A stretch of DNA of 64,000 nucleotides, taken from NCBI RefSeq assembly GCF_001545075.1, contig NZ_FCOB02000006.1, positions 1 through 64,000 of the forward strand, given 5' to 3'. The translations under genes and the position numbers were made by a program. The number at the start of each line of letters is the position of its first letter. Position 1 is the stretch's first letter. This document shows positions 24,444-32,484 of this stretch, piece after piece. The DNA comes from Caballeronia ptereochthonis. Lineage in GTDB: Bacteria; Pseudomonadota; Gammaproteobacteria; Burkholderiales; Burkholderiaceae. The notes beneath the pieces were generated by a model, which was not told the origin of the DNA, did no database searches, and worked only from the letters and a program-made list of their open reading frames with translations.

Positions 24444-24590
24444 GTTACCGCTTCGGCGGCCGACGCTGACACGGACCGAATCGAAAACAGTCGCGCGCGG
24501 CGTTTTCCACGGCCTTCAGGGAGAAGGGCAATGAAGAGCGACAATGGTACGAACAATCGCGCCTCTCACGATGCGGCCCGCCCGATGAAA

Positions 24591-26834
24591 TCACTTCGTA
24601 TCGAACGCGCTCACACAGTCCCAGTCCTCGGGCAGTTCGACGCCGCGCAACGCATCGATGCGCTTGCGATAGAGCGCATACAGCTGCCGCTCGGGATACT
24701 GCGTGGCGAGCGCATCGAGCAGCGCCTGGGCCTCGTCCCACTCGCGCGCGCGATAGTGCGAGAGCGCCGCATGCCAGCGCGCGAGCTCGTCGGTGTTCTG
24801 GCGTGACGACTGCGGCTCGAACACCGCGATCGGCGCGGCGCGTCCCTTGACGCGCACCCGGTCGATCTCGCGGAACACCACATCCGGCGCTTGCTCGCGC
24901 GTCGCCTCGCCGACGATGATGTCGATATCGAAGCGCCGCGTGAGGCCTTCGAGGCGCGCGGCGACGTTCACCGCATCGCCCATCACCGTGTACGCCTTGC
25001 GCACGGAGGAGCCCATGTCGCCGACGGTCATCGGCCCGGTGTTGATGCCGATGCCGACCCACAAGGTCGGCCAGCCGTGCGCCGTGAGCGTACGGTTCAG
25101 CTCGACGAGCGCCGCGCGCATGCCGAGCGCGGCGGCGAGCGCATGGCGCGCATGATCCGGATCGTCGACGGGCGCGCCCCAGAAGCCCATGATCGCATCG
25201 CCGATGTACTTGTCGAGCGTGCCGCGATGCGCGCGGATCACCTTGGTCATCGTGCCGAGATACTCGTTCATCAGGCGCGCGAGCGCTTCCGGTTCGAGCG
25301 TTTCGGCGATCGCCGTGAAGCCGAGCACGTCGCAGAAGAGCACCGTCAGCTCCGCACGACGCCCCGCCATGCTGTAGTCCTCGGGATGACGGCTCATCTC
25401 CTCGACGAGCTCGGGCGGCACGTATTGCCCGAACAGGGCGGCGAAGTGGCGCTTGGCGCGCGCCTCGACGAAATAGCCGTACGACATGTTGAGCACGTAG
25501 AGCGCGAGCACCGCGAGCAGCAGCGAGGCCACGGGAATCGACCAGCCGGGCCGCGCGAAGGCGAGGAGGTCGGCTGCGACGATCGCGCCGAGCAGGATCG
25601 CGGTGAAAAGCGTCGCGCGGGCGGGGAGGCGCCACGGCCAGAGGAAGATCATCGCGAGACCGGCGAGCAGGAGCGCGAGCGCCTGCAGCGTCGCGGCGAA
25701 GGGCGGCTGGAAGCGGATCGCGTCATCGAGCATGCCGCTCACGAGGTTCGCGTTCACCTCGACGCCCGGATACACCTCGCCGACGGGCGCCGTGCGCTGA
25801 TCCATGAGGCCCGGCGCGGTCGTGCCGACGAGCACGATCTTGCCCGCGAGCGCGCCCGCCGGGATGCGCCGCGCGAGAACATCGGCGATCGAGTAGTAGG
25901 GGAAGCTGCCGGCCACGCCGCGATAGGGAACGAGCGCCGCGCCGTTGGCATCGACGGGAATGACGCGCACGCCGCGCGGCGTCGCGAGCGCGAGGCCGGA
26001 GAGCGGTGCGGCCGGATCGGCCGGATCGTCGAACAGCGGCGTTATCGTGGCGTCGCCGTAGAGCGCGCGGATGACTTCGAGCGAAAGCGCGCCAAATACG
26101 CCGTCGCGGTAAGCGGTGACGAGCGGCACGCGGCGCACGGAGCCGTCGAAATCGATCACTGGATTGAAGCAGCCCGCGCGCCGCGCGGCCTTTTGCAGCG
26201 CCGGCAGGTTGCCGCCGTAGCTCGTCCAGTCGAAGAGCGTGAACGGATGGGTGCCGAACGCGCTCGCGCTCATCAGCGGTGCGGGGATCGCGCCGCTCGA
26301 TGCGTCCTGATTCGAGAAGTAGTAGCCGAGCACCACGGGATGGCCCGCGAGGGCATCCGCGAAGCGCTGGTCGTAGTCGAGGCGCGGCGCGAGTTGCGCG
26401 AGCGCGTGCCGGTAATCGGCGTCGTTCGCGAGCGCGCCGCGCGCGAGTTCGTCGAGGACGGCCAGGCCCGAGCTCGCGTCGGGCTCCGCGAACACCATGT
26501 CGAAGCCGAGCACCGCGATGCGCTCGCGTCCGAACAGCGCGTTCACCAGTTCCGCCATGCGCGCGCGGTCCCAGGGCCAGCGGCCGAGCTCCGCGAGGCT
26601 TTTCTCGTCGATGTCGAGTATCGCGATGCGCTGGTCCGTCACGCGCGGCATGAAAAGGCGCACCTTGGCGTCGTAGATCATCGCGTCGAGCGTATCGACG
26701 AAGCGAATGTCGTAGCGCGAGAGCGCGTGTCCGGCAAGCGCAAGCAGGATCGCGAGCCCGGCGGCCCAGCGCGCGCCCGAGCGCTTCATCACGAACGCGA
26801 CGGGCTCGCGATGCGCGCGCGGGCGCCTGCTCAT
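24591..26834 (-). CDS. CHASE2-domain class III adenylate/guanylate cyclase
   Basis: A 747-residue receptor cyclase. Its short N-terminal helix (ARWAAGLAILLALAGHALS) is followed by a periplasmic CHASE2 sensor domain of about 300 residues (RIAILDIDEKSLAELGRWPW through VLVGTTAPGLMDQRTAPVGE). Three membrane helices then lead to the cyclase domain. Metal-binding aspartates are in VLFCDVLGFT and KYIGDAIMGFWG, and the transition-state Arg in GDAVNVAARLEG. A short helical tail ends the protein. The specificity residues suggest ATP (Lys in DKYIGD) but do not prove it. Its ATG overlaps the stop of the cNMP-binding gene by four bases (ATGA), and it is the last gene of the five-gene TPS operon. Confidence 0.93.
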   Translation of the reverse strand: MSRRPRAHREPVAFVMKRSGARWAAGLAILLALAGHALSRYDIRFVDTLDAMIYDAKVRLFMPRVTDQRIAILDIDEKSLAELGRWPWDRARMAELVNALFGRERIAVLGFDMVFAEPDASSGLAVLDELARGALANDADYRHALAQLAPRLDYDQRFADALAGHPVVLGYYFSNQDASSGAIPAPLMSASAFGTHPFTLFDWTSYGGNLPALQKAARRAGCFNPVIDFDGSVRRVPLVTAYRDGVFGALSLEVIRALYGDATITPLFDDPADPAAPLSGLALATPRGVRVIPVDANGAALVPYRGVAGSFPYYSIADVLARRIPAGALAGKIVLVGTTAPGLMDQRTAPVGEVYPGVEVNANLVSGMLDDAIRFQPPFAATLQALALLLAGLAMIFLWPWRLPARATLFTAILLGAIVAADLLAFARPGWSIPVASLLLAVLALYVLNMSYGYFVEARAKRHFAALFGQYVPPELVEEMSRHPEDYSMAGRRAELTVLFCDVLGFTAIAETLEPEALARLMNEYLGTMTKVIRAHRGTLDKYIGDAIMGFWGAPVDDPDHARHALAAALGMRAALVELNRTLTAHGWPTLWVGIGINTGPMTVGDMGSSVRKAYTVMGDAVNVAARLEGLTRRFDIDIIVGEATREQAPDVVFREIDRVRVKGRAAPIAVFEPQSSRQNTDELARWHAALSHYRAREWDEAQALLDALATQYPERQLYALYRKRIDALRGVELPEDWDCVSAFDTK

Positions 26835-27529
26835 TGCGCCGTCCGGATCTGCTCGTTCGCGGCGACGAGCCGCGCCGCCAGCACGCGCGCGACGAACTTG
26901 TGCATGCGCGCGGCGAGCGCCGGATCGTCGGTTTCCAGGCGCTTCAGCATCGAAACGGCGAGCCGCAGCACGACGGTCGGCTCGTCGGCGACGACATCCG
27001 CGCTGCGCCGCGCGCCGGTGTACACGGCCATCTCGCCGACGATCGTGCCCGCGCCGAAGCTCCTCAGGCGCAGCGTGCGTCCCTCGCCGACGGACAACGC
27101 CACGGTCACGCGTCCGGTCTCGACGAAGCAGATCGAATCGCCGGGATCGGCCTGGCGGAACACGTACTCGCCAGGCGCGAGCGTGAGCGTTTCCAGATGC
27201 GGGCGCAGCGCGTCGAGCGTCTCGGGCAGGGTCGATGCGAACGCGCCGGCGTTCGCCGCAAGCGCCGGATGCGCCGCGCGCGCCGCGTTCAGCAGCCGCG
27301 TTTCGATCCATTCGAGCTCGTTGTCCAGATCGGCAAAAACATGCGGGCCGCTCGGGTTCTTCGTGAAGATCATCGCGCCGTAGCCCGCGGCGTACGAAAG
27401 CGCGATCAGCGCGGCGACCAGGCCCGCGAGCGCATCGAGGCCGAGCGATGACAGCGCCGCATGGACATGCGGCGCGCCCGCGGGCGACGCCCGGCTGAAC
27501 TTCGGTTCGCGGCTGGCGTTCTCGCTCAT
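26831..27529 (-). CDS. Membrane-anchored cyclic-nucleotide-binding protein
   Basis: A 232-residue protein with one N-terminal membrane helix (LDALAGLVAALIALSYAAGY) and a C-terminal cNMP-binding domain (TLAPGEYVFRQADPGDSICF onward). The phosphate-binding cassette GEMAVYTGARRSADV keeps the Glu and Arg that hold the cyclic phosphate and ribose. No DNA-binding domain follows, so it is not a Crp-type transcription factor. It lies directly before the cyclase gene with a 4-base overlap, which suggests a membrane effector that responds to the local cyclase product. The ATG at 27529 is 11 bases after the FecR-gene stop; the longer frame to 28264 is a shadow of that gene. Confidence 0.9.
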   Translation of the reverse strand: MSENASREPKFSRASPAGAPHVHAALSSLGLDALAGLVAALIALSYAAGYGAMIFTKNPSGPHVFADLDNELEWIETRLLNAARAAHPALAANAGAFASTLPETLDALRPHLETLTLAPGEYVFRQADPGDSICFVETGRVTVALSVGEGRTLRLRSFGAGTIVGEMAVYTGARRSADVVADEPTVVLRLAVSMLKRLETDDPALAARMHKFVARVLAARLVAANEQIRTAQ

Positions 27530-27540
27530 GATGATTCCGG

Positions 27541-28188
27541 CTAGCGGCACGCCGCGGACGGCACGACCGGCGTGACGCGCGTCGCGGGCAGCACGCGAAA
27601 GGGCAGCCGCGGGCTCACCACGATCGCGCCTTCGCCCGCGCGCACGATGCGCCTGTCGACCTGATTGATCACGACGATCTGCCCGTCGTAGACCACGATC
27701 TGATCGCCCTTGCAATCCGCATTGCCGCCGGGCTCGAGATTCGCGCAATCGGTCACGGAATACTCGGTGCCGCGTATGCCGATGGTCGAGGTCGGCGTCC
27801 TCACGCGGTAGTTCTCGGGCTTGCCCTCCTTCGCGACGAGTCCATCCACCGCGCGCAGGCCGCCCTTCACGAGCGAGAGCAGGCTGCGGTCTTCCTGCGG
27901 CGCGTTCGCGGCGTAATGAAACTCGTCGACGCGAAACACCGAGCCCGGCTTGAGATACACGCGCTGCCTGTCGGTGAAGATCATCACGATCTCGGATGCG
28001 ATGCCGGTCTGCACGGTGTCGCCGTTGTCGATGCCGCCGCCCACGGCCGCCACGCGCTGCGCGCCGCTCGCCGACTGGATCGCGACATTGCCGACGAGCG
28101 CGGTGATCGTCGCGACCGGCTCGGCGCACACGACGCGCGCGGTCATCGCCAGCATGAGCAGCAGCAGGAAATGTCGGGCGCGCGTCAT
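27541..28188 (-). CDS. FecR-domain periplasmic protein
   Basis: A 215-residue secreted protein with a clear signal peptide (ARHFLLLLMLAMTARVVCAE, cleavage near residue 22). A FecR domain follows, with the typical IDNGDTVQTGIASEIVMIFT, GSVFRVDEFHY and VRTPTSTIGIRGTEYSV segments. FecR domains of this type occur in envelope sensors and are often encoded beside CHASE2 cyclases. There is no membrane helix or anti-sigma region, so it is not a classical FecR sigma regulator. It sits 8 bases after TpsB and 11 bases before the cNMP-binding gene. Confidence 0.9.
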   Translation of the reverse strand: MTRARHFLLLLMLAMTARVVCAEPVATITALVGNVAIQSASGAQRVAAVGGGIDNGDTVQTGIASEIVMIFTDRQRVYLKPGSVFRVDEFHYAANAPQEDRSLLSLVKGGLRAVDGLVAKEGKPENYRVRTPTSTIGIRGTEYSVTDCANLEPGGNADCKGDQIVVYDGQIVVINQVDRRIVRAGEGAIVVSPRLPFRVLPATRVTPVVPSAACR

Positions 28189-28196
28189 GTCCGGTC

Positions 28197-29960
28197 TCAG
28201 AAGGACTTCGTGAGCGCGACCCAGAAGCGGTTCGCGTGGCCAGTGCCGAGCGTCGCCGGGACATAGCCCAGCGTGTGCGCGTAGGACATCGAGAGCAGGA
28301 AGTCGTGCGGCGCGGCGAAGCTCGCGCCGACGCCCAGTCCCGACAGCCGCACGTGATTGCTGCCCGGCACGACCGGGTGCGCCGCGATCTTGCCGTCGGC
28401 CGTGTCGACGAAGCCCGTCAGCGTGACGAGCACCGGCACGAGCGATTGCTTCAAGGCCTGACGCACTTCGAAGGTGGCGACATAGGCTTCGTCGACGGGC
28501 GCGTCGCCGGTCGCGTAGGCGCGCACCGCATAGGGGCCGCCGAGCGAGATCTGCTCGGACGAGTCGAGATTGCGCGATGCGGCCTGGCCGTTGAGCGAGA
28601 AGTACAGCTGCGTGCCGTTCGCCTGGTCGCCGATCACCTGCGTGTGGGTCAGGGCGAACACGAACTTCGTGAACGAGCCCGCGATCTGCGCGGCCGCCTG
28701 CTCGACCTGCGGCGACTTGAAGCGCAGGTTGCCTTGCTGGATGCTCGTGTCGAAGGTCGTGATGCTCTGTTCCAGCGTCAGATTGCCCGACAGCGCGAGG
28801 CGCCCGACATCGCTGCTCTTGTCGTCGACGGAATCGAACGCGCCCAGATGGTCGGACAGGAGCTTATGGTCGTAGCCGAGCGTCGCGTACACGTTCGCCG
28901 CGGGCGAGCGCAGCAGCGCGTAGCTCACGAATGTGGACCAGACGTTCGCGCTGCCGTAGGCGTCGAGGTCGTCGAACTGGCCGCCGACCGAGTATGTCGA
29001 GCGCGTGTAGCCGACGCCCCACGCGAGCCCGCTTCCGCCGAGCGGCACCGTGTAGCCGAGGTTGCCGTAGAACTGCCCGGTGATCGAGCCCAGCAGCCGC
29101 GCGACCAGCTGATCGCCGATGCCGAGCGGATTGTTCCATTGCAGCGCGCCGATCAGACGCGCCGTGCCGGTCGTCGTCTGGCCGTAGTTGTCCGCCTGCA
29201 CGCTGCCGGAAAGCGGCCGCGCCTTCGGCATCTGCAGCGTCATGTTCGACGTGCCCGGCAGAACGCCCGGCGAGATCGTCGCGTTCGCGCCCGTCGTGCC
29301 GGCCGCGTCCTGCGCGAGCAGCGTCGCGCGGGTGAGGGCGTGTTCGTCGATCACGTCGCCCGCATGCAGGGAGCCGAGAAAGCCCGCGACGACCGCATCG
29401 CGCGTGCGCGACTGATTGTCGATGTCGATGCGCCCGTAGCGCCCCTCGCTCACGGCGATGCGCACGACGCCGTCGTCGATCTGCTGCGGCGGCACCCAGG
29501 CGCGCGCGACCAGATAGCCGCGCCGGCGGTAGTACGCGCTCACGCGGTCCGCCGCGCCTTCCAGATCGTCGAGCGAGCGATCGGGACCGATGACGGGGCG
29601 CACGGCGTCCAGCAACTCCGCCGCCGGGAAGATCGTGTTGCCGGTGAATTCGAAGCCTTTCACCGCGAAGCGGATGCCGCCCGGTGCGCTCGCCGCCGGC
29701 GGCTCCGGCGCGGGCGTCACGTTCAGGCGCAGGTCGGAGGGCGGCGGCGGGGCGGGGGTCTGCTGTTGCTGCTCGCGCAGGATGCTGCCCGCGTTCGGGA
29801 GCGTCTGAGCGCGGGCATCGCGCACGTCGCGGGCGGATGCCGCGGCCAGCGCCGCGAAGAGCGCGATCAGCCGTCGCGATGCGGTGCGGCTGTATCGTGC
29901 GGGGGGCCGTGAGCGACGCACGCGCCCGGGCCTCACATGCGGCATACGTGACCGGGCCAT
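28197..29960 (-). CDS. TpsB outer-membrane transporter of a two-partner secretion system (ShlB/FhaC/HecB family)
   Basis: A 587-residue Omp85-superfamily pore that secretes its partner TpsA. After an N-terminal signal region and a Pro/Gln-rich linker (REQQQQTPAPPPPSDLRLNV) come POTRA domains (FAVKGFEFTGNTIFPAAELL and the following VVAGFLGSLHAGDVIDEHAL). A 16-strand barrel follows, ending in the outer-membrane terminal Phe (VALTKSF). The L6 plug motif VRAY, essential in FhaC, is present in GGPYAVRAYATGDAPVDEAY. The start overlaps the end of tpsA by 28 bases; a second ATG at 29945 is possible. The arrangement tpsA then tpsB is common. Confidence 0.93.
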   Translation of the reverse strand: MARSRMPHVRPGRVRRSRPPARYSRTASRRLIALFAALAAASARDVRDARAQTLPNAGSILREQQQQTPAPPPPSDLRLNVTPAPEPPAASAPGGIRFAVKGFEFTGNTIFPAAELLDAVRPVIGPDRSLDDLEGAADRVSAYYRRRGYLVARAWVPPQQIDDGVVRIAVSEGRYGRIDIDNQSRTRDAVVAGFLGSLHAGDVIDEHALTRATLLAQDAAGTTGANATISPGVLPGTSNMTLQMPKARPLSGSVQADNYGQTTTGTARLIGALQWNNPLGIGDQLVARLLGSITGQFYGNLGYTVPLGGSGLAWGVGYTRSTYSVGGQFDDLDAYGSANVWSTFVSYALLRSPAANVYATLGYDHKLLSDHLGAFDSVDDKSSDVGRLALSGNLTLEQSITTFDTSIQQGNLRFKSPQVEQAAAQIAGSFTKFVFALTHTQVIGDQANGTQLYFSLNGQAASRNLDSSEQISLGGPYAVRAYATGDAPVDEAYVATFEVRQALKQSLVPVLVTLTGFVDTADGKIAAHPVVPGSNHVRLSGLGVGASFAAPHDFLLSMSYAHTLGYVPATLGTGHANRFWVALTKSF

Positions 29961-32296
29961 GCGTCGTCCGGCAGGCGGCTGCCGTCGCTCGACGAATCGG
30001 TGCGCTGTCGCACGAGCGGCGCCGATCCCGGCTCGAGTCCCGGTGTCGCGTCGCTCAGGTGCGCGGGATTGGCCGCATCGGTGCGCACGGAATCGAGTAT
30101 GCCGGGCAGCGTTGTCGCGGTCGTCACGAGCGGTTCCGGGGCCGTCGTCGGCTGCGTCGGCTGTAGCGGCGATGTTGGCGTTTCCGGCGTCACCGGTGTG
30201 GTCGGCACGTTCGGCGTGTTCGGCGGCGGCTGCGTCGGCGCGGCCGCGATCCGCAGCGTGCCGCTTTGCGTCGTGATCCGGTAGCCGGTCGGGCCGCCGG
30301 TCGCGGTGATGGTGATGATGTACTCCCCGCTCGCCGCGCCCGGTGCGGCGCCCGTGCTCGTCACCGTGAAGACGAACGGTTCGTGGACCGTGGGGCTGTC
30401 GGCGAAGGCCTTGCCGTAATTCGAGCCGTCGTAGCGCAATGCGATGGTCACGTCGTTAGGCCCGAGCGTGCGCGGCGTGTCGAACGGCACGTCGATGTTC
30501 ACGGCCGTGAGCGTGACCTGCTGGAGCGCCGTGAAGGCGAAGCGATTGCCGCCGGACGAAGCGGCGCGCGCATCCGCGCCGCCGGTGTACGAGTCGCCCC
30601 AGAGCGCGAGATTGCCGCTTTGCAGGCCGCCGAAGCCATCGGCGTCCGGGGAATCGGAGTAGACGAGCCAGCGGCCGTTGGGCGCGGCGAGTGCCTGCGC
30701 CCCCGCGCGGTTATCGAAGGAGGCGGACGCGAGCGTGATCGCGGTGCCGCTCGCGCGGCTCGCCACCGGCGCGGCGAGCGTCAGCGACGGCGCTGCGAGC
30801 GTCACTGCGCCGCTCGCGGAGACGCCCGCCAGTCCCGCGACGCTGCCGATCGTGAGCGGCGCCGCGTCGTTGACGACGATCGACGCAGCATCGGCGGCGA
30901 GCGTGCCGATGCGGTTCGCCGTGTTCGCGAGCGTGTAGGTTCCCGCGCCGCCTTGCAGCGCGACATTGGCCGCTTCGACGGGCGCGCGCTGGGCCACACC
31001 GCCCCCGGTCGACATGGCGAGCGTGCCGTTCGGCGCGGTAATGGGCGCATCGAGCACGATGCCGCTTTGCGCGGCGAGCGACAGCGTGTTCGCGCCGCGC
31101 CACGCGACGGGGCCGTCGATCAGCACGAAACCGAACGGCTGCGAGCCGGACGGCGCCGCCGCGCTGATGCTGACACTGGTCGATTCGAGCACGCGCGAGA
31201 GCGTCGCGCCCTGGATCGTGCCGAAGCGTCGTCCGAAGCGGTTTCCCGAGCCCACGAGCGCGGCGAAGTCGCTTGCGATGCGCCACGTCCCGGTTTGTCC
31301 CGCTGCCGCCGCCGTCGTGATCCGCGCATCCGACGCGACGCGCACCTGCGTTCCTGTCGTCTCGATGATGCCGCCGTTGCCGCCGCCGGGCGCCGACGCG
31401 TCGAGCGTGCCGCCCACGCGCGCGACGCCGCCTTCCGCGACGAGCCGGATCACGCCGTTCTCGCTGACGGCGCTGCGCGCGCGAATGATGCCCGTGTTGT
31501 TGACGACGCTCGCGAAGAGCGCGTCTTCCGCGTTCGCGGTGAGCCATGCCTGGCCGCCGTCGGCCTGAATCAGCCCGCGATTCGCGACCAGCGCGCGGAG
31601 CGTGCCGCGCTCGACCGAGAGGCCGATCATGCCGTGATCGCCGAGCGTGACCGCGACGCGTTCGCCCGCCGCGAGCGCGGCGACGCCGTTGGGCGTGTCG
31701 ATCGTGCCGGCGTTGATCGCGCGCGCGCCGATCAGTGCGACGTACCCGCCCGGCGCGCTAGTGAGCGAGCCGAGATTGACGACCGCCGCGCCGTCGTCGT
31801 GGTCGTGATGCCAGTGGCGCTCGCGCCAGTCCTTGCGGCCGCTGTCGGCGAAGGCGTAATGGCCGCTCATGAAATCGCTCGTGGAGAGGCCGAGCGTCGA
31901 CGCGAGCAAGCCGCCGACATTCACCTGCGCGCCCGGCCCGAAGATCACGCCGTTCGGATTGACGATGAAGACCTGCCCGTTCGCGTTCAGCTTGCCGAAA
32001 AGTGCCGAAGGACGCGGCCCGACGACGCGGTTGAGCGCGATTGCGTTCGCGCCGGGCTGATTGAACGTGACCGATTCGCCGGGCCGCGTGCTGAACGAAT
32101 TCCAGTCGATGGCGAGCCGATTGCTGTTCTGCTGGATAGTCGTGCCCGGGCCGCTCGTCGCGACGGAGCCTGACCCCGCGACGACGCGCCCGCCTGTCGG
32201 CTCCGCGTGCGCATGCGCGAAGGCCGCCCCCAGAAGCGTGGCGGCGCACAGCCGCACCGCAGGGGACGCGGCGCCCGCGCGCAGAGTCTTGATCAT
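29933..32296 (-). CDS. TpsA exoprotein with TPS/filamentous-haemagglutinin N-terminal domain
   Basis: A 787-residue secreted protein. AAGGAG upstream of ATG 32296 fixes the start. The signal peptide (residues 1-31, ending FAHAHAEP) precedes the TPS recognition domain, which has QQNSNRLAIDWNSFSTRPGE, NQPGANAIALNRV and the NPNG motif at 113-116. A His/Asp cluster HWHHDHDD sits at 161-168. A beta-helical middle follows, then one Ig-like MBG-type domain (YGKAFADS ... GEYIITITATGGPTGYRITT) and a Pro/Thr-rich tail. It is short compared with haemagglutinins and lacks long repeats and a toxin tip. It is more likely an adhesin or surface structure than a contact-dependent toxin. Confidence 0.92.
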   Translation of the reverse strand: MIKTLRAGAASPAVRLCAATLLGAAFAHAHAEPTGGRVVAGSGSVATSGPGTTIQQNSNRLAIDWNSFSTRPGESVTFNQPGANAIALNRVVGPRPSALFGKLNANGQVFIVNPNGVIFGPGAQVNVGGLLASTLGLSTSDFMSGHYAFADSGRKDWRERHWHHDHDDGAAVVNLGSLTSAPGGYVALIGARAINAGTIDTPNGVAALAAGERVAVTLGDHGMIGLSVERGTLRALVANRGLIQADGGQAWLTANAEDALFASVVNNTGIIRARSAVSENGVIRLVAEGGVARVGGTLDASAPGGGNGGIIETTGTQVRVASDARITTAAAAGQTGTWRIASDFAALVGSGNRFGRRFGTIQGATLSRVLESTSVSISAAAPSGSQPFGFVLIDGPVAWRGANTLSLAAQSGIVLDAPITAPNGTLAMSTGGGVAQRAPVEAANVALQGGAGTYTLANTANRIGTLAADAASIVVNDAAPLTIGSVAGLAGVSASGAVTLAAPSLTLAAPVASRASGTAITLASASFDNRAGAQALAAPNGRWLVYSDSPDADGFGGLQSGNLALWGDSYTGGADARAASSGGNRFAFTALQQVTLTAVNIDVPFDTPRTLGPNDVTIALRYDGSNYGKAFADSPTVHEPFVFTVTSTGAAPGAASGEYIITITATGGPTGYRITTQSGTLRIAAAPTQPPPNTPNVPTTPVTPETPTSPLQPTQPTTAPEPLVTTATTLPGILDSVRTDAANPAHLSDATPGLEPGSAPLVRQRTDSSSDGSRLPDDAWPGHVCRM

Positions 32297-32484
32297 GTCG
32301 GCCGACTCCTTTCTGCTGCGCTGCATCGACGTGAAGCGATGCGGGCGCACCATCAAGCAGTTTAGTGTTCCGAATCATGCCTGCAATATGCGTCTAGAAA
32401 ATGCGCGCAAGCGCGGGCTGTGTGCGCTCGACCACGCACGCGCACGCTTCATTCGTCTTAGGGATGCGATGGTTCGTCGAGTGT

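Follow-up and report, generated by a model that had tools for sequence, protein, structure and literature searches.

Classical two-partner secretion (TPS) loci of the FhaB/FhaC type usually contain tpsA and tpsB alone. In S. meliloti, CHASE2 cyclases raise cyclic AMP (cAMP) on a protein signal sensed via the outer-membrane protein NsrA (PMC7529298, PMC13001267). The BiofilmReg operon of Burkholderia and Achromobacter codes for a response regulator, a LysM-FecR protein and a CHASE2 histidine kinase (PMC5192318). Here we analyzed a locus from Caballeronia ptereochthonis within a stretch of 64,000 nucleotides (the window; contig NZ_FCOB02000006.1), where tpsA and tpsB are followed by genes for a FecR-domain protein, a cyclic nucleotide (cNMP)-binding protein and a CHASE2 class III cyclase. 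With a probability of about 0.6, the locus is a reduced form of a conserved operon of six genes, in which two-partner secretion would be coupled to a dedicated cAMP circuit.

The fourth gene and its full-length relatives

The five genes span 24591-32296, all on the - strand, with gaps of -28, +8, +11 and -4 bases. These coordinates and the Pfam matches agree with the five same-direction genes of the original prediction, which was made from the sequence of the window. The prediction also took the fourth gene product, a protein of 232 amino acids (aa), for a purpose-built one-helix cNMP reader, and here alignments and Pfam point instead to a remnant. By tblastn against 20-kb loci of related genomes, a single 733-759-codon gene, located between the FecR and CHASE2 genes, aligns at its start with residues 1 to ~56 and at its end with residues ~57 to 232. 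Its 733-759-aa product has Sulfate_transp, STAS and cNMP_binding domains in one protein (Pfam; genomes G050, G069, G877 and G1172), while the STAS match of genome G226 is just under the cut-off (20.9 of 22.6 bits). Compared with G050 (C. peredens), a net 1575 bases are gone from the window, and the junction, near 27362-27340, is in frame. The remaining protein is made of the SulP N-terminus and first membrane segment joined to the STAS end and a whole cNMP domain; cNMP_binding is its sole family over cut-off, and the SulP membrane domain is not among its matches. Judged by these alignments, the window gene is the product of an in-frame internal deletion in a gene for a SulP-STAS-cNMP transporter. 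Full-length SulP in the relatives rules out a one-helix receptor as the origin of the gene, and we consider such a receptor below only for present use. The window genome encodes a second, intact SulP-STAS-cNMP protein (749 aa; L068:4081-6330, + strand, contig C35). At 46-48% identity, this paralog is no plain copy of the transporter part that was lost.

Of the 23 Caballeronia loci, 14 encode full SulP, as does G069, which belongs to another genus. Besides the 232 aa in the window, the remnant has 124 aa in C. catudaia (G029), 110 in C. temeraria (G021), 48 in C. zhejiangensis (G017), 28 in C. glebae (G048) and 15 in C. calidae (G042), with nothing left in C. cordobensis (G022). In G032 and G010 there are mere out-of-frame tail traces of the SulP gene and the start is lost. 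The break points differ from species to species. On a tree of tpsB, FecR and CHASE2 (24 taxa, 4818 columns), parsimony gives a minimum of eight SulP losses in Caballeronia if no regain is assumed, a count that leans on the distinct break points too because several nodes have support of 53-83. The 23 species are a natural deletion series in which the cAMP writer and the TPS genes are kept and the transporter comes and goes.

The loci fall into clade 1, with 18 species including that of the window, and clade 2, with five loci. In all 17 clade 1 loci with SulP or a remnant, the stop codon of this gene and the start codon of the cyclase overlap as ATGA. G022 encodes neither, and its cyclase starts with a GTG at the SulP start position. 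All six clade 1 remnants are in frame from the SulP start to the ATGA, for which the chance is (1/3)^6 = 1/729 = 0.0014, or 0.004 without the window. Frame and four-base overlap are kept in all six, probably because selection protects the translation of the cyclase through its coupling to the upstream gene. In clade 2, G027 and G055 have a 15-nt gap between an intact SulP gene and the cyclase, and in G020 a full SulP gene has a four-base TTGA overlap.

We also compared pairwise ratios of non-synonymous to synonymous substitution (dN/dS). They are 0.06-0.23 for tpsB, 0.07-0.28 for FecR, 0.10-0.23 for CHASE2 and 0.11-0.29 for full SulP. From these values the TPS, FecR and cyclase genes of the window, all open, are under purifying selection and the transporter is constrained where present. 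The 172-codon tail of the window gene has no stop and a dN/dS of 0.21-0.36 (0.21 against G050). Its branch carries 8 non-synonymous and 8 synonymous changes versus 8 and 13 on the G050 side; relaxed selection on the remnant was not seen with these counts, which are too small to decide. The tail is consistent with a cNMP domain either deleted free only recently or still used.

The six-gene unit in Burkholderiales

To determine how conserved the locus is, we surveyed 58 genomes of the genus, and 25 of them matched the CHASE2 protein at E<=1e-50. The match in G002 (32% identity) is not the same gene but part of another FecR-CHASE2 cyclase pair within Caballeronia (L149:7765-10982, + strand). Another, in G035, is a decayed fragment; the whole locus (L061) has decayed, with a stop in the cyclase fragment (3.7-Mb genome, 520 contigs). 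The remaining 23, including the window, and G069 have tpsA, tpsB, FecR and CHASE2 on the same strand and in the same order (24 of 24 loci). Among 398 Burkholderiaceae genomes, the cyclase is found at E<=1e-100 in 33: 23 Caballeronia, six from four other genera and four of genus g12. In each of the 29 outside g12, its neighbors include TPS and FecR genes.

Directly after CHASE2, 17 of the 18 clade 1 loci encode a 255-265-aa protein of the metallo-beta-lactamase fold. It passes the PDEase_II cut-off (PF02112, 23.7) with 46.3 bits in G050, 51.2 in G226, 51.4 in G877 and 55.8 in G1172, as expected of a class II phosphodiesterase; cAMP as its substrate is an assignment, because this Pfam cut-off is passed and the NCBIfam equivalog cut-offs are missed. 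The window is the sole clade 1 locus without the gene, and a search of the whole genome gave no convincing homolog either (best E 0.017).

The intact operon thus has the order tpsA-tpsB-fecR-sulP:cNMP-CHASE2 cyclase-phosphodiesterase. All six genes occur together in 11 Caballeronia loci, six loci of other Burkholderiaceae genera and two of family f28, a total of 19 loci from six genera and two families, in four gene orders. G1137 is a variant with tpsB last. In family f28, a SulP relative is encoded in four of 61 genomes, each time with a CHASE2 cyclase within a few kb. G226 has FecR-tpsB-tpsA-cyclase-phosphodiesterase-SulP on one strand, with overlaps of 16 bases (FecR/tpsB), 10 bases (tpsA/cyclase) and 20 bases (cyclase/phosphodiesterase), and G877 has cyclase-phosphodiesterase-SulP-FecR-tpsB-tpsA. 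The other two f28 loci are partial: G857 encodes two SulP proteins and a cyclase, and G855 SulP, a cNMP protein, a cyclase and TPS. The tandem SulP-cNMP genes of G857 (L151:7901-12104, + strand) are convergent with the CHASE2 cyclase. A second SulP-cNMP gene, convergent and right after the cyclase, is also present in G027 (L058 14785-16956, operon on the + strand) and G055 (L059). Plasmid records had no match to the cyclase and five weak matches to SulP, all of <60% identity.

These comparisons support the TPS, FecR and CHASE2 cyclase genes being a conserved operon-like unit and not chance neighbors. Linkage of the genes was the core of the original prediction; it holds in order in the 24 loci, and two distant f28 relatives have the same six parts reordered. 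Random placement of the signaling genes beside tpsB had been set beforehand as the refuting outcome of a survey, and conserved linkage is the opposite. A terminator separating tpsAB from the last three genes, the other feature that would speak against one operon, did not appear, as a simple scan of the locus gave no terminator-like site between genes.

We next consider the order as a whole. The cyclase is encoded in 160 of 399 Burkholderiales genomes. We read 40 loci outside Burkholderiaceae, picked by rank and family among the matches listed and before their neighbors were seen; they are not a random sample and several are cut by contig ends. Partners encoded within 8 kb of the cyclase are a phosphodiesterase (32 loci), a cNMP domain (10), FecR (six) and TPS (four). 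Common partners of the cyclase are a CHASE2 Ser/Thr kinase, PP2C and an FHA protein, as in G316 (L098:4554-11857), where the CHASE2 Ser/Thr kinase, PP2C, FHA, CHASE2 cyclase and class II phosphodiesterase genes lie in a row. Many of the 40 loci also have a second CHASE2 open reading frame, of about 840-1010 codons, upstream of the cyclase. In the four cases with TPS, the reader differs from case to case. G351 encodes a 234-aa three-helix Popeye-like cNMP protein (L130:7992-8696, + strand; PF04831, 34.1 bits with a cut-off of 28.1) directly before the CHASE2 cyclase and divergent from a tpsB-tpsA-FecR run. In G304, a CRP-family regulator and a cNMP-rhodanese protein are encoded between tpsB and tpsA (L120:13086-14961, + strand). 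No cNMP reader was seen in the TPS-cyclase loci of G247 and G278, and the SulP relative of G247 sits elsewhere in the genome.

Proposed circuit and rival readings

The CHASE2 protein is presumed, from its sequence, to be an adenylate cyclase with cAMP as product. Residues D502, K542, D546, T616, N623 and R627 are invariant in 11 of 11 aligned homologs; we take them to be the metal Asp pair, the substrate Lys/Thr and the transition-state Asn/Arg. The protein also has homologs among solved cyclase structures. In the proposed circuit, TpsB would export TpsA to the surface, and the FecR protein in the periplasm would inform the CHASE2 domain of the cyclase, likewise periplasmic, about the state of TpsA/TpsB or about ligand contact. 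The inner-membrane cyclase would then make cAMP in the cytoplasm, cAMP would bind the cNMP domain of the SulP-STAS transporter and change anion transport, and the class II phosphodiesterase would reset the signal. In the window lineage an in-frame deletion has removed the body of the transporter, and with the phosphodiesterase gone too, the writer and a membrane-tethered cNMP stub remain. As the transport arm and the eraser are missing, any cAMP would act through other receptors or through the stub, which may still bind cAMP. The parts line up across the envelope, from TpsA at the surface through TpsB in the outer membrane and FecR and CHASE2 in the periplasm to the cytoplasmic cyclase domain, the transporter-borne cNMP domain and the cytoplasmic phosphodiesterase; this order, together with the S. 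meliloti NsrA and BiofilmReg precedents, favors signaling from the surface to cAMP to transport. Self-monitoring of secretion is one version; in another, TpsA would sense an external ligand or contact, and sequence does not divide the two. Somewhat short of even odds, we suggest that the intact operon is an undescribed trans-envelope system, in which a TPS surface sensor acts through FecR/CHASE2 and cAMP on a cAMP-gated SLC26-type anion transporter with its own phosphodiesterase. No description of the TPS-FecR-SulP:cNMP-CHASE2-phosphodiesterase combination was found in searches of an open-access library, some of which were uninformative.

How the window remnant is to be read can be viewed in several ways. 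That the deletion is an assembly artefact is scarcely credible: the window genome is a draft of 117 contigs, but the junction is in frame and inside a 255-kb contig, and separate deletions with other break points are found in the assemblies of other species. About evenly poised is the possibility that the remnant is a translational leader only, a dying gene whose frame persists to lead ribosomes on to the overlapping start of the cyclase gene. Beyond the frame kept from start to stop in every remnant of the ATGA clade, this fits with 15-codon remnants being sufficient and with the remnants of G032 and G010 having lost their start in clade 2, where G027 and G055 have the 15-nt gap. A leader needs no folded domain, however, and the cNMP domain of the window is without decay so far. 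Carrying translation into the overlapping cyclase start is, from the gene arrangement, the best-supported present role of the stub. The 232-aa protein could also be a minimal reader that is new and functional: a cAMP receptor of Popeye-like build, tethered to the membrane by one helix and kept after the transporter was shed. This we find possible but rather unlikely; the local cNMP reader of the original prediction, discarded as the origin of the gene, comes close to it for present use. Its cNMP domain is whole by Pfam and confidently modeled (predicted local distance difference test, pLDDT, of 82-96 over residues 111-200), with CRP-type and other cyclic-nucleotide-binding domains as the best fold matches. 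G165, E166, R175, S176 and A177 are invariant in what is presumably the phosphate-binding stretch. The low dN/dS and open frame of the tail also favor a reader, as does the Popeye-like protein of G351, whose gene immediately precedes that of a CHASE2 cyclase next to a TPS-FecR operon, though the window protein itself has no PF04831 (Popeye, POPDC) match at E<=1. Against a working reader, five related species retain just 124 to 15 aa of the gene product, and G022 has lost the gene but not the cyclase. The first 61 residues of the model are unreliable, so the N-terminal membrane segment is modeled at low confidence, and an equally mild dN/dS would be expected soon after a deletion; the counts are small.

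The TPS pair and the cyclase module could also be passengers, co-inherited neighbors without functional coupling. In the order, 36 of the 40 cyclase loci have no TPS within 8 kb, and TPS genes are mostly without the cyclase (53 places in 23 of the 40 genomes, four near the cyclase). We nevertheless judge this improbable, as the same six parts occur in four gene orders and two families, the order is kept in 24 of 24 loci, and four TPS places within 8 kb of the cyclase compare with 0.26 expected (Poisson P 1.5e-4, taking TPS places as uniform along genomes). The TPS-less loci weigh against a six-gene operon with its own cAMP circuit all the same, and so do several other results. The four members of genus g12, which have small genomes, encode the cyclase with no TPS, FecR or SulP matches in the 15-20 kb read. 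Outside Burkholderiaceae, 11 of the 15 SulP-cNMP loci read lack both CHASE2 and TPS in the part covered (just 6.2 kb for L153; the second SulP place of G123 is not among the loci); SulP as a general partner of CHASE2 cyclases was rejected on this count. Within Caballeronia the repeated losses mark SulP as dispensable. The phosphodiesterase is absent from the operon in all five clade 2 loci, although present in G069, and the sixth gene reaches no NCBIfam equivalog cut-off. In the 300 bp upstream of tpsA the best cAMP-CRP site over 17 loci has 3 mismatches of 10, and a cAMP-CRP loop closing onto tpsA was rejected. Lastly, what the sequences establish is the gene content, its conservation and regrouping, and the deletion with frame and overlap kept; co-transcription, the direction of the signal, cAMP as product and its binding, transport and its gating, and contact of FecR with TpsB or CHASE2 are things we infer.

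If the coupled operon is real, a secreted exoprotein would govern a bacterial SLC26-type transporter that is gated by cAMP, and the lineages that lost this transporter again and again but retained the cyclase would reveal a second, separable output of cAMP. How a surface exoprotein may report inward, and the roles of CHASE2 and of stand-alone FecR, could be tested in one compact operon. The fourth gene also carries a caution: a small 'novel' signaling protein from one genome may be the stub of a larger protein.

Window features and comparison with known systems

Features of the C. ptereochthonis locus, in window coordinates
Feature	Coordinates	Strand	Basis or remark
tpsA (TPS-domain exoprotein, 787 aa)	29933-32296	-	PF05860, TIGR01901
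tpsB (POTRA + ShlB/FhaC-type outer-membrane exporter, 587 aa)	28197-29960	-	PF08479 (POTRA_2), PF03865 (ShlB)
FecR-domain exported protein, 215 aa	27541-28188	-	PF04773, 35.2 bits
cNMP protein, 232 aa (remnant of sulP:cNMP)	26831-27529	-	cNMP_binding (Pfam); alignment to intact relatives
CHASE2 class III cyclase (presumed adenylate cyclase), 747 aa	24591-26834	-	PF05226 (CHASE2), PF00211 (Guanylate_cyc)
ATGA overlap, remnant stop / cyclase start	26831-26834	-	Kept in 17/17 clade 1 loci with SulP or remnant
Site of class II phosphodiesterase gene in 17/18 clade 1 loci, absent in window	24444-24590	-	Locus comparison
dgkA-like gene	23991-24443		Gene calls; follows cyclase after 147 bases
Conserved block upstream of tpsA, putative promoter TTGCAG-N16-TAAACT (by eye)	32347-32386	-	Alignment of 17 upstream regions

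The tpsA product matches the N-terminal TPS domain in Pfam with 127 bits over residues 32-287 and TIGR01901 with 87.9 bits, over its cut-off. With a POTRA/ShlB partner gene adjacent (Pfam), the two are a two-partner secretion pair. The gene is conserved in 22 further Caballeronia loci, the G017 copy being cut by a contig end. A composition-based gene caller gave the same five genes with a later tpsB start, at 29825, so the 28-base tpsA/tpsB overlap hinges on the choice of start; tblastn of relatives aligns with the long form from residue 1. The FecR protein has, by eye, a signal-peptide-like N-terminus, and PF04773 is its sole domain. No extracytoplasmic function (ECF) sigma factor gene was noticed near it by eye among the genes called at 20-37 kb, without a domain scan of the neighbors. 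The window genome (7.7 Mb) encodes one CHASE2 protein over the Pfam cut-off and has four TPS-domain places.

The block of ~40 bases 5' of tpsA is nearly invariant across the 17 loci and scores below the threshold of the promoter scan. With 0.7 promoter-like sites expected, that scan gave one, located within the cyclase gene. The terminator scan gave two hits against 4.5 expected, the first within tpsA and the second on the opposite strand; both scans are uninformative.

Loci of the FhaB/FhaC type share with the window adjacent genes for a TPS-domain exoprotein and a POTRA-barrel exporter and differ in that they are not known to have a cAMP writer, reader or eraser. The intact operon SulP has the membrane domain and STAS of SulP/SLC26 transporters, but it differs from the sulP, DauA and BicA types in its C-terminal cNMP domain and is far under their curated cut-offs (113.5 of 380.45, 55.5 of 614 and 52.6 of 880 bits, respectively). 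The L098-type cluster of other Burkholderiales has the same cyclase-phosphodiesterase pair as the intact operon and is a likely source of its writer-eraser half, although that cluster is tied to protein phosphorylation and not to TPS-FecR-SulP. In BiofilmReg, as here, a FecR-domain periplasmic protein is encoded beside a CHASE2 membrane sensor; its output, in the available text, is a two-component relay and the operon is without cyclase or secretion genes (PMC5192318). The S. meliloti system of NsrA with CyaD1/CyaD2/CyaK needs a predicted beta-barrel outer-membrane protein for an external protein signal to reach CHASE2 and raise cAMP, but its reader is the transcription factor Clr and, as described in the available text, it is without a TPS exoprotein, a SulP transporter or a linked phosphodiesterase (PMC7529298; PMC13001267). 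The likeness of NsrA and TpsB is drawn on role, not on sequence. The six-gene unit is a new combination of known parts, akin to signaling from an outer-membrane receptor to a CHASE2 cyclase.

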